From assembly GCA_039193195.1 (NCBI GenBank), contig JBCCWS010000026.1, positions 1-64,000 on the forward strand: a DNA stretch of 64,000 nucleotides. The letters run 5' to 3'. The DNA comes from Pseudomonadota bacterium. GTDB lineage: Bacteria; Pseudomonadota; Gammaproteobacteria; Steroidobacterales; JBCBZW01. Each line of letters begins with the position of its first letter. Within the stretch, counting starts at the first letter, position 1. Both the position numbers and the translations under genes were made by a program. The notes beneath the pieces are model-generated. The model made no database searches. It saw nothing but the letters and a program-made list of their open reading frames with translations, and was not told where the DNA came from. Of the stretch, positions 1-31,425 are shown in pieces.

Positions 1-28
1 CCATAGCCGAGCTATGGCTGCATTTGAC

Positions 29-196
29 CAACGCCGCGATGGCGCCCGTGCTACTCGCCCTTCGGGTCTGCCCAGGGGCAGCGTCCGCGGCGTTGCATCG
101 CTTGCCAATGGCGATGCCATTGGCTGCGCGACGCGCCTTGCTGACGCTGCCCCTACACAGACGGAGCGTTACCTAATTTGCCAAGCGGCCCACTAG
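29..196. repeat. Structured dispersed repeat, copy 1 (composite)
   Basis: A non-coding palindromic element. Positions 91-196 match 30804-30909 at about 97 of 106 positions by hand count, with no gaps. It contains a perfect hairpin (104-124, 9-bp arms, 3-nt loop) and ends at 196 in GCCAAGCGGCCCACTAG, the right-end sequence of copy 2. The left part differs: 37-58 is the exact reverse complement of 30779-30800, so one module is inverted between the copies. Further internal inverted repeats pair 29-38 with 86-95 and 75-85 with 143-153, so the transcript could fold into a long branched structure. The last bases supply the TAG stop of the reverse-strand gene at 193-798. The true left border is unclear and may lie outside the window. 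Confidence 0.8.
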
Positions 197-798
197 GGTG
201 CCGCGAGCACCTCCTCGCGCGCGGGCATGGAGCGAACCACCACGCCGTGACCATCCGTACTCACACGGGCGTAAGCCTTAGCACGTACTGCGCCAGGGTC
301 GACGACCACGGGCACGGCGAATCCACGCATGCGACGCGCTCCCCAGTCATCGACGGTGCTCACCACGATGTTCAGGTATCGGCGCGAGGCGAGCGTGGGC
401 GTTACCAGGATCTGCTCGCTCCAATGCTCTCGGGCAAGTCGGTGCCCGATGGCAAAGTCTGCTGACTGCACCTCTAGACCCTCTTCACCGATTAGCTTGA
501 CCTCAGCCGAGAGCCCCGTGAGGGCACGGAAATCGAGATGTATGGCCACGGGCTCGCCGAGGGTCGGGGGTGCCGCCAACCGCCAGCTCAAGGAGATCGG
601 CGCCTTGCTGGCGAAGGCCGTGGCCGGTAGGTGGCTGTGCGCGTACTTGCCGAACGCGGGGTGGCTCGTCCCCTCCAGCAAGGCAGACGGATAGTCCGCA
701 TCCTCGGCGCCGAGCATCGGCTCAGCGGCGAGGCCCGGAATTGACACCAGCAGCGCCAACGCCAGCACGAGGCAGGGGCTTGTGACATCTGCGTTCAT
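193..798 (-). CDS. Secreted hypothetical protein
   Basis: A 201-residue protein of no family I recognise. Residues 1-25 look like a Sec signal peptide (hydrophobic LALALLVSIPGLAA followed by E), so it should act in the periplasm or outside the cell. The mature part is rich in beta-forming residues and has no cysteine or obvious catalytic motif. It lies 9 bp downstream of the metalloprotease-like lipoprotein gene on the same strand, so the two are probably co-transcribed and may work together (inference only). Its TAG stop is made by the end of the structured repeat at 29-196. The ATG at 798 follows a GGAG ribosome-binding site. Confidence 0.6.
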   Translation of the reverse strand: MNADVTSPCLVLALALLVSIPGLAAEPMLGAEDADYPSALLEGTSHPAFGKYAHSHLPATAFASKAPISLSWRLAAPPTLGEPVAIHLDFRALTGLSAEVKLIGEEGLEVQSADFAIGHRLAREHWSEQILVTPTLASRRYLNIVVSTVDDWGARRMRGFAVPVVVDPGAVRAKAYARVSTDGHGVVVRSMPAREEVLAAP

Positions 799-23747: not shown

Positions 23748-25381
23748 GCCTCAGCACATGGTGGCAAGGCCTTCGCCCTGGCTTGGCCCTTGCGCCCGAG
23801 GTGCTTCAGGGCTCTGCGGAGGAACCGGCTGGCCTGCGCCGCGTGCCGTTGCCCGAACGCCTAGCCTTTCCCCTGCACCACCCAGGAGGGTGGCCGCTAA
23901 CGCCCGTGGTGAAAGTTGGCGATCAAGTGCGCTTCGGCGAGACCTTGGCAGAAGGCCCCGTTGGCTCCGCCCTGTCTCTGCACGCCGCCGCGGCGGGCAC
24001 CGTACTCGCGCTTGGTGAACATCCAGTGATCGATCCCGTGGTGGAGAACGCCCGCTGCATCGTGATCGCAACGCAACCCCAAGACCATGCGCCATGGCTG
24101 GCGCCGATCGCGGCGCCCGAACAAGCGCCCCCGCCCGCCCTGCGCGCGCGCGCGGGCGAAGCGGGCCTAATGGGCATGGGAGGTGCGCAGTTCCCCACCG
24201 TAACGAAGCTCGAGCTGGCCGCAGCGGCTGGCGTGCACACGCTCATCGTCAACGGTGCCGAGTGCGACCCAAGCCTCACCTGCGATCAATGGCTGATGCA
24301 GTCCTACTCCGCGCAGATCGTGCGCGGCGCCCGGCTCCTCTTGCACGCTTGCGGTGCCGAGCGCTGCGTGCTGCCCTTAGAGGATGACAAGCCCGCAGCC
24401 GTCGCTGCGATGGCAGAGGCAGTCGCCGAAGCAGGGGACCCGTGCTTGGAGGTCATCCCCGTCGCCCCGCGCTACCCCGCGGGCGGGGAACGGCAGCTCA
24501 TCGAGCGCCTGTTCGGCGTCGAGGTGCCCACCGAGACTTGGCCCGTGGACGCAGGCTACGTAAGCTTCAACGTCGCCACAGCCGCTGCCTTCGACGACGC
24601 CGTGCGTCAAGGCCAACCACTCACCGAGCGCATCATCAGCATCGCAGGCCCGGGCGTCGCCCAGCCGGGCAACGTCATCGCGCCCCTGGGCTCATCGATC
24701 GCCCATCTGATCGAACACGGTGCCGGTGGCTACCGTGAGGGGGCCAGCCGCCTAGTGGTCGGGGGCGCCATGATGGGCATCGCCATGGCGAGCGATGAGG
24801 CACCGATCACTGCGGCCAGCAACGGCCTGTTGGTCCTCACGGATGTGCGCACGCACGCTGCGCGACGGCGACAGGGCACCCTGCCCTGCATCCGCTGCGG
24901 TGACTGCGCGTCGGTCTGCCCCGCCCGTCTCCAACCACAGGAGCTTTTTCGTCAACTCCAGGCGGACGATGTACCGGGCGCCACCGCCCTGCACATCGTC
25001 GACTGCATTGAGTGCGGCAGCTGCGACACCGTATGCCCTAGCCAGATACCGCTTACCGAAGCGTTCCGTCAGTCCAAGCGTAGGCTAGCGCGAGCGCAGC
25101 GGGAGGTGCAGCGCGCTGACCGCTGGCGCAGCTTGTTCGAGCAGCGCAACGCCCGCCTCGCCACGGACGAGCGAGCGCAGGCCGCGCGTGCCTCCCGTCG
25201 GGCAGCGCAGACGGCACGACCGACGCCGGAGATTTCCAAGGAGGCGGCTGCGGTCAATCACGTCCCAGGACGCCCCCGGACCCAAGCGAACGAAGACGAT
25301 CGCCAGGCGGTCATCCGCGCCGCGGTGGAGCGAGCGCGCGCACGACGGCGCACACGCAGCACCCCGGGCACGGACTCGTAG
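23744..25381 (+). CDS. rsxC: Rnf/Rsx complex subunit C
   Basis: A peripheral flavin/Fe-S subunit (545 residues) that in Rnf takes electrons from or gives them to NADH. The N-terminal part has the barrel-like start [22 protein letters not shown], the glycine-rich [16 protein letters not shown] and NGAECDP, typical of the NuoF-like FMN/NADH fold, and then an SLBB-type region. Two 4Fe-4S motifs follow: [12 protein letters not shown] and [12 protein letters not shown]. The basic, Ala/Arg-rich tail after about residue 445 is much shorter than in E. coli RsxC, as is common outside enterics. It overlaps rsxB and is followed 6 bp later by rsxD. Confidence 0.94.
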
Positions 25382-30744: not shown

Positions 30745-30909
30745 CTAGTGGGCCGCTTGGTAAACAAGGTGACACTCAGCGAGTAGCACGGGCGCCATCG
30801 TGGCGTTGCATCGCTTGCCAATGGCGATGCCATTGGCTGCGCGATGCGCCTTGCCGACGCTGCCCCTACGCAGACTGAGCGTTGCCTTAACTACCAAGCG
30901 GCCCACTAG
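30745..30909. repeat. Structured dispersed repeat, copy 2, with terminal inverted repeats
   Basis: A complete 165-bp non-coding element bounded by a perfect 18-bp inverted repeat: CTAGTGGGCCGCTTGGTA (30745-30762) and TACCAAGCGGCCCACTAG (30892-30909). Inside is a perfect hairpin (30817-30837, 9-bp arms) identical to the one in copy 1, and 30804-30909 aligns with 91-196. Segment 30779-30800 is the exact reverse complement of 37-58. It encodes no protein, so it resembles a MITE or a palindromic REP/BIME-type unit that would need an enzyme supplied elsewhere. The right CTAG overlaps the hinT stop codon, with hinT itself intact. No clear target-site duplication beyond CTAG. Confidence 0.88.
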
Positions 30910-31247
30910 CCCGGCGGCCAGCTGAGCGAGCGACCACCGAGCACGTGCAGGTGCAGGTGGAAAACGGTCTGCCCCGCGCCTTCGCCGTTGTTCACTACCA
31001 GCCGGAAGGCGTCGCCGTAGCCCTCCTGTTGCGCCACCTTGGCTGCCGTCAGCATCAGGTGGCCCAGCACGGCCTGATGCTCGGACTGCGCCGAGGACAG
31101 CATGTCGATGGGCTCCTTGGGGATCACCAGCACGTGCAGCGGCGCCTGGGGCGCGATGTCGCGGAAGGCCAGAGCGTGGTCGTCTTCGTAGACGATGTCG
31201 GCGGGTATCTCCCGCTTGATGATCTTCGTAAAAATAGTCTGCGACAT
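30906..31247 (-). CDS. hinT: HIT family purine nucleoside phosphoramidase
   Basis: A small dimeric hydrolase (113 residues from the preferred start) acting on adenosine phosphoramidates and aminoacyl adenylates. The N-terminal TIFTKIIKREIPADIVYEDD, the catalytic triad HLHLHVLGG and the C-terminal WPPG all match HINT proteins, so the gene is full length. Two ATGs are possible (31253 and 31247); the GGGAGG upstream is better spaced for the second. The TAG stop is formed by the end of the repeat element at 30745-30909, so that insertion left the protein unchanged. It is divergent from the MATE exporter gene. Confidence 0.93.
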   Translation of the reverse strand: MSQTIFTKIIKREIPADIVYEDDHALAFRDIAPQAPLHVLVIPKEPIDMLSSAQSEHQAVLGHLMLTAAKVAQQEGYGDAFRLVVNNGEGAGQTVFHLHLHVLGGRSLSWPPG

Positions 31248-31425
31248 CCGCATGAGCCTCCCACGGCGAAAAAAGCACAGGTAAGTTCGTAGGTACCCGC
31301 GACTTGGCGGTCCACCTGGCCGATCTTATACTGCCGGCGCTCCAACTGACGCGCTCCCCCACTCGCCCCCGCGGCACGCCGATCAGAGGTTCGCCTGCCG
31401 CCGCTACGCATGGACGTTCCTCGTC

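Follow-up and report, generated by a model that had tools for sequence, protein, structure and literature searches.

The two loci studied here, copy 1 and copy 2, probably belong to one family of non-autonomous, MITE-like elements within a Proteobacteria-wide superfamily that combines a structured core with exchangeable ends. Both lie in the window, the 64,000-nucleotide stretch that was analyzed (G000:C26:1-64000), and their features are collected in Table 1. As originally predicted, they represent a dispersed, non-coding structured element: a search of the genome (G000) gave about 75 sites with unrelated flanks and placed both loci in one family. The possibility that these two loci stand alone was thereby removed, as many relatives were also found elsewhere.

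The 16-bp end gave 63 forward and 63 reverse matches in the genome, compared to 7 and 10 for a reversed-pattern control, and the similarity search returned E-values of 2e-81 to 1e-39 for the best 40 of 98 matches, which is far beyond chance. Complete copies measured 270 to 271 bp (the long form), 163 to 166, 171 to 174, or 181 to 188 bp, with rarer sizes of 150, 130, 102, and 93 bp. The long form is bounded by terminal inverted repeats of 35 bp (CTAGTGGGCCGCTTGG...) and contains a CCCTTCGGG mini-hairpin as well as two hairpin arms. Its predicted Y fold is nearly complete, running from the terminal stem through one hairpin arm and the mini-hairpin to the second arm; nearly all of the roughly 270 bp would thus be self-complementary, with the terminal-repeat stem closing the two arms around the mini-hairpin. 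For 27 diverged elements, fold z-scores ranged from -8 to -21 compared to dinucleotide shuffles. No gene was found between complete end pairs in the G000 stretches examined, nor in G182.

Recomputing the alignments confirmed the similarities from which the original prediction had started: positions 91 to 196 match 30804 to 30909 at 97 of 106 bases, positions 37 to 58 are the exact reverse complement of 30779 to 30800 (22 bp; 29 of 30 for 29 to 58 against 30779 to 30808), and positions 193 to 196 read CTAG, with the TAG stop of a minus-strand gene at 193 to 195. The window starts at base 1 of its contig and copy 1 is therefore cut by the contig start; its 196 bases align without gaps to the last 196 bases (75 to 270) of a 270-bp copy at C22, with 190 of 196 identical. 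For copy 2, the earlier reading had missed both the edges, which are perfect 16-bp terminal inverted repeats (30745 to 30760 and 30894 to 30909; 83% identity over 35 bp) with CTAGTGGGCCGCTTGG on the left and CCAAGCGGCCCACTAG on the right, and the fact that the right end also falls on a TAG stop, that of a HIT-type gene. A covariance model of the hairpin (R1) recovered both copies. It also gave a weak match at window positions 25079 to 25174 (minus strand; E = 0.04), inside a coding region and probably due to chance.

Table 1. Coordinates of the two element copies in the window and of the genes at which they are inserted
Feature	Position	Strand	Basis or remark
Copy 1: right 196 bases of the ~270-bp long form, left ~74 bases beyond the contig start	1..196	+	Canonical orientation; 190/196 match; R1 hit 68-163, 77.9 bits
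Copy 1 divergent hairpin: remaining loop and 3' arm; 29-58 is the block reverse-complemented relative to copy 2	1..58	+	
Copy 1 mini-hairpin CCCTTCGGG between the two arms	58..66	+	Sequence, folds
Copy 1 canonical hairpin arm: outer stem 66-88/140-162, tip GGCGTTGC..CGCCTTGC, apical stem 104-112/116-124	66..162	+	Covariation across 26 relatives
Copy 1 right terminal inverted repeat, terminus CCAAGCGGCCCACTAG	162..196	+	
Copy 1 CTAG target; 193-195 is the TAG stop of gene 193-798 (-)	193..196	.	Element-free G001 orthologue ends GCGCCC TAG, same codon
Host gene of the copy 1 insertion (stop codon), 201 aa, function not named	193..798	-	
Copy 2: complete 165-bp single-arm form	30745..30909	+	Perfect 16-bp terminal inverted repeats; pieces of the long form
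Copy 2 left terminal inverted repeat	30745..30779	+	35 nt, 83%
Copy 2 arm segment, inverted relative to copy 1 29-58	30779..30808	+	29/30
Copy 2 retained canonical-hairpin tip	30804..30874	+	R1 hit 30784-30874, 64.7 bits
Copy 2 right terminal inverted repeat	30875..30909	+	
Copy 2 CTAG target; 30906-30908 is the TAG stop of the HIT-type gene (-)	30906..30909	.	G001 orthologue CCG CCG GGG TAG without element; here CCG CCG GGC TAG
Host gene of the copy 2 insertion (stop codon), 115 aa, HIT-type by inspection	30906..31253	-	

Copy 1 breaks at its hairpin apex, where the contig starts. Many assembly contigs start or end inside elements or within about 300 bases of them (window position 1, C25, C36, C42, C81, C97, C8, C28, and C63), and the family thus marks a frequent cause of contig breaks.

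The block that differs in orientation between the two copies had been taken for an inverting module. One block is indeed inverted between them, but this block forms one side of a hairpin stem and does not invert freely: all the long forms examined had their arms in one arrangement, and it is the junction in copy 2 that copies the opposite arm. Copy 2 consists of long-form positions 1 to 53, a stretch matching the reverse complement of 103 to 132 (29 of 30), and positions 163 to 270; its positions 35 to 53 match both arms of one stem. By this arrangement, copy 2 appears to be an internally deleted long form in which the tip of one hairpin is fused to the stem of the other, and this fusion would be the "inverted module". 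The junctions suggest that the 165-bp form arose by template switching between complementary arms, which would explain the inverted block: a polymerase would have switched to the complementary hairpin arm and then jumped to the repeat GGCGTTG in the other arm. A dedicated inversion system would be unnecessary.

We compared the insertion sites with the corresponding loci of a sister species of the same genus (G001). Empty sites there read CTAG at L121 and L124 and CTTAG at L088, and the flanks outside CTAG have no longer repeat in common. The orthologues of both window genes end at the same TAG in G001 with the element absent. At both window loci, as well as at L124 and L088, the stop codon is older than the insertion. 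The stop codon, which had been thought to be built into the element and supplied by it, is therefore part of the CTAG target and not the element's gift. The empty sites are consistent with insertion into CTAG accompanied by duplication of either TA or the whole CTAG, which are indistinguishable because the target is almost always CTAG.

Half of the 40 complete insertions lay on stop codons (20; one of these, L126, is doubtful, as it sits at a broken IS630 relic), 16 lay between genes, and 4 lay inside predicted genes. Among 546 background CTAGs in 304 kb, classified like the insertions from the gene calls of a simple codon-usage finder, 375 (69%) were inside genes, 22.5% between genes, and 48 (8.8%) on stop codons. 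Stop codons were thus enriched among the insertions (20/40 versus 48/546, p = 3e-10), also when only tolerated CTAGs were counted (20/36 versus 48/171, p = 0.003), and gene-internal sites were depleted (4/40 versus 375/546). Copies with a single recognizable end had a lower stop-codon share (7/32). The element's orientation relative to the stop-codon gene showed a weak bias, with 15 opposite and 5 the same. Since CTAG within genes would mostly not be tolerated and CTAG at gene ends occurs as xxC-TAG, surviving insertions would often fall exactly on stop codons, with the TAG kept. Targeting of CTAG in this way explains a class of puzzling observations of repeats at stop codons.

Additional CTAGs were seen next to the element ends (CTAGCTAG) at about 10 of some 85 sites (L060, L123, L137, L072, L077, L120, L132, L163, L165, and L175), compared to about 0.3 expected; some of these loci are two abutting elements. 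The extra CTAGs are possibly excision footprints or the result of insertion beside older ends. In G001, the empty site of copy 1 (L346 near 2040) reads CCCTAGTGCTAGTGCG, with two CTAGs two bases apart, possibly left behind by a copy since lost. No clear sign of excision footprints emerged from a search of element-free DNA for spaced CTAG pairs.

Other families of the order gave weak matches that were limited to the hairpin region. A scan for the exact hairpin-tip pattern returned at least 120 stretches; among the matches listed were Sulfuritalea, Rhodocyclales, Nitrosomonadales, Methylobacillus, Rhodoferax, and Hydrogenophilales, as well as Thioalkalivibrio, Pseudomonas akapageensis, Mariprofundaceae, and unnamed Gammaproteobacteria. 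A few, e.g., Kiritimatiellia, had no terminal repeats and look like chance matches. Terminal repeats around the element were found automatically in about 70 of these at least 120 stretches, mostly with a size of 259 to 294 bp. The order of parts was constant: end, divergent hairpin (CAAGGCG..CAACGCC), CCC..GGG mini-hairpin, canonical hairpin (GGCGTTGC..CGCCTTGC), and end. Members in Beta-, Gamma-, and Zetaproteobacteria have the hairpin tips, the layout, and the length in common; their stems differ yet are self-complementary, and their ends differ as well. The superfamily would accordingly keep its two inverted tips, its layout, and its length, with the stems changing by compensation.

An alignment of 26 non-redundant canonical hairpins showed changes on both sides in 18 of 30 consensus pairs, and 87.6% of paired cells were complementary, compared to 35 to 49% in slid controls. 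The covariation score was 0.436 (0.126 ± 0.013 for shuffled alignments), a value reached by none of 500 shuffles. Most rows of this alignment were picked by the tip pattern and the conservation of the tip stretch is thus partly due to this choice of rows, but three plasmid rows found by blastn (L347, L348, and L350) still largely keep it. The hairpin covariance model matched 53 of 184 sampled genomes of the class Gammaproteobacteria (about 29%) and 28 of 150 sampled genomes of the phylum, 16 of the 28 outside the class. One element sequence was common to G049, of the same order, and Gammaproteobacteria bacterium SB0673_bin_2.

The ends varied by lineage (CTAGTGGGCCGC, CTAGTGYCGTGTCA, CTAGTGTCCTGTCCC, CTAGGGYCTGTTGACG, AGAGCCTATTTCAGTAGG, TTAACCCGGCAAC, TATACCCAAGC, and TAGGGCGTGTCATCA) and can differ even inside one genome (L371/L372 and L239/L289). 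The form found in Azotobacter, Halomonas, and P. aeruginosa starts with TAGGGTCTGTTGACGTTT, which is the end of TA-flanked IS5-family transposons of 0.84 to 0.86 kb, and its 37-base end matches the ends of such transposons in Aeromonas and Paracoccus; the Aeromonas copy is intact (0.86 kb, TAGGGGCTGTTGACGTTT...AAACGTCAACAGCCCCTA) and has a reading frame with an IS4/5-family domain. A partial partner was seen in G059, where the IS630 ends CTAGTGTCCTGTCCCGC are close to the element end CTAGTGTCCTGTCCCAT at L281. Judged by sequence likeness, elements with the same core carry ends resembling those of at least two transposase families. In each lineage, the element probably bears the ends of whichever TA- or CTAG-targeting DDE transposase is available, which would be IS5/IS427-like in Pseudomonas, Azotobacter, and Halomonas and IS630-like in others.

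No transposon bearing the ends of the window family turned up in G000, G001, or the plasmids searched, and a plasmid search with the window-type end gave no match. The sole DDE_3 gene of G000 is a relic with other ends, and no DDE_3 gene was found in G001. Four betaproteobacterial genomes (ends GAGCCTRTTTCAGYAGRAA) and G182 (ends TATACCCAAGC..) were searched for an autonomous partner and gave element-sized end pairs only. Large end-flanked regions in L249 and L266 turned out to be neighboring copies. The IS630 relic at C16 was likewise rejected as the window family's parent: it has the ends of a second MITE family (CTAGTGTGCTGAGTTAGAAG), and a window-type element merely sits at its broken end. 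Transposition in trans appears to be the best-supported mechanism for the superfamily, and we infer the same for the window copies.

The second MITE family in G000 is 165 bp long with ends CTAGTGTCCTGAGTTAGAAGTTCG (43 + 38 end matches; e.g., L161:1501-1665 and L126:3487). Its end is the left end of the broken IS630 (DDE_3) gene at C16:30986, and it also inserts at CTAG. At L126:4024-4560, the DDE_3 gene stops abruptly at a window-type element and is not continued beyond it, which suggests a deletion adjoining the element.

REP and REPIN sequences are 20- to 40-bp hairpins with a GTAG or CGTC foot, present as singles or as inverted pairs of about 100 bp, and these hairpins (REPINs/BIMEs) are moved by RAYT (Y1) transposases. 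The element resembles REPINs/BIMEs in having two inverted hairpins with conserved motifs and many copies, mostly outside genes; it differs in being much longer (270- and 165-bp units), with a 35-bp terminal repeat and CTAG ends and without the GTAG or CGTC foot. The original view that REP or insertion sequence annotation does not cover it held. The lack of a transposase gene sets it apart from the IS5-family (IS427-like) and IS630 insertion sequences, whose ends match those of some lineages (TAGGGTCTGTTGACGTT for the IS5 family and CTAGTGTCCTGTCCC for IS630).

In a typical MITE, the ends are the best-conserved part, and MITEs are usually viewed as local leftovers of one insertion sequence. MITEs of the IS630/Tc1 kind and MITEPsy1 share with the element that they are short, non-coding, and multi-copy, with terminal inverted repeats and a CTAG target; here, the forms span 93 to 271 bp, the repeats 35 bp (16 bp perfect), and the sites number about 75. 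An end-sharing partner was not found for the window ends and was found, with the IS5 family, in the Azotobacter/Halomonas/Pseudomonas lineage. MITEPsy1 of Pseudomonas syringae has a CTAG/YTAA target with a 4-nt duplication and is 100 nt long; its 18-nt repeats are almost the same as those of ISPsy2 (PMC3189936). Unlike MITEPsy1, the element is about 270 bp long and has a two-arm core that extends across classes, lineage-specific ends, and no partner for the window ends. What speaks against a plain MITE is that conservation across classes covers the internal tips but not the ends. Functionally, the element behaves like a MITE, but a local origin by deletion from one insertion sequence does not fit, since across lineages the interior is better conserved than the ends.

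A tentative extension of this reading is that the Y-shaped two-tip core is itself the functional entity, either a class-crossing parasite that swaps ends for different transposases or one moved by a tip-reading enzyme. If so, the stems would be free to change, since replication or repair restores complementarity, and a conserved factor, host-encoded or mobile, would bind the tips. With ends of at least two transposase families on one core, both the proposed exchange of ends and a putative function of the tips become directly testable.

It is unlikely that a trans-acting factor recognizes the structure and not the ends, with the tips bound as folded single strands and the terminal repeats serving as the closing stem, as might be modeled on RAYT/REPIN hairpins or integrase/attC sites. 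Such a factor would fit the tips being conserved across classes while the ends are not, the pairing of nearly every base with compensatory change, the REPIN-like layout of two inverted hairpins, and the presence of the ends on no transposase-bearing element in G000, G182, and the four betaproteobacterial genomes. However, one lineage's ends match those of TA-flanked IS5-family transposons, target preference follows end type, and a candidate recombinase gene of a type other than RAYT was not found. Selection for a folded transcript, i.e., a structured RNA gene or a 3'-end RNA element such as a terminator or processing signal spread by recombination, is quite improbable. The strong covariation, and the finding that half of the complete copies begin directly at a stop codon, agree with it, but DNA hairpins would covary likewise, the CTAG target accounts for the position on stop codons, orientation with respect to the gene shows no more than a weak bias, and the dispersed copies have no fixed neighbor gene. 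Nor did Rfam 15 covariance models give a convincing match over any element (19 loci at E ≤ 1); the sole weak match was a microRNA model in L379, at 25.8 bits, far under its cut-off of 97. The inverted block and the TAG are both real, but a built-in stop codon combined with an independently inverting module is hardly tenable, given the stop codons of the element-free sister species, the identity of the block as a complementary stem arm, and the single arrangement of the long forms examined.

With the preferred reading of a MITE-like family, a structured non-coding core of constant size is common to beta-, gamma-, and zetaproteobacteria and carries ends of at least two transposase families. Our literature search found no published description of the superfamily, which may have an ISfinder entry or appear in a subscription paper. 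Single members may have been reported before, e.g., the Pseudomonas fluorescens intergenic repeat R6, described as 177 bp with 34-bp inverted repeats (PMC2718517), which by that description alone is like the single-arm forms (174 to 188 bp) in size and repeat length; its host genus carries the superfamily (L239 and L289). Searches of viral contigs gave no element, and phage records gave no match to the Azotobacter form. Among plasmids, the element was present in Azotobacter chroococcum, Halomonas, and one P. aeruginosa plasmid. The latter, which carries member L350 (NZ_CP017294.1 8549-8818), is a conjugative IncP plasmid and could plausibly move the element between genera.
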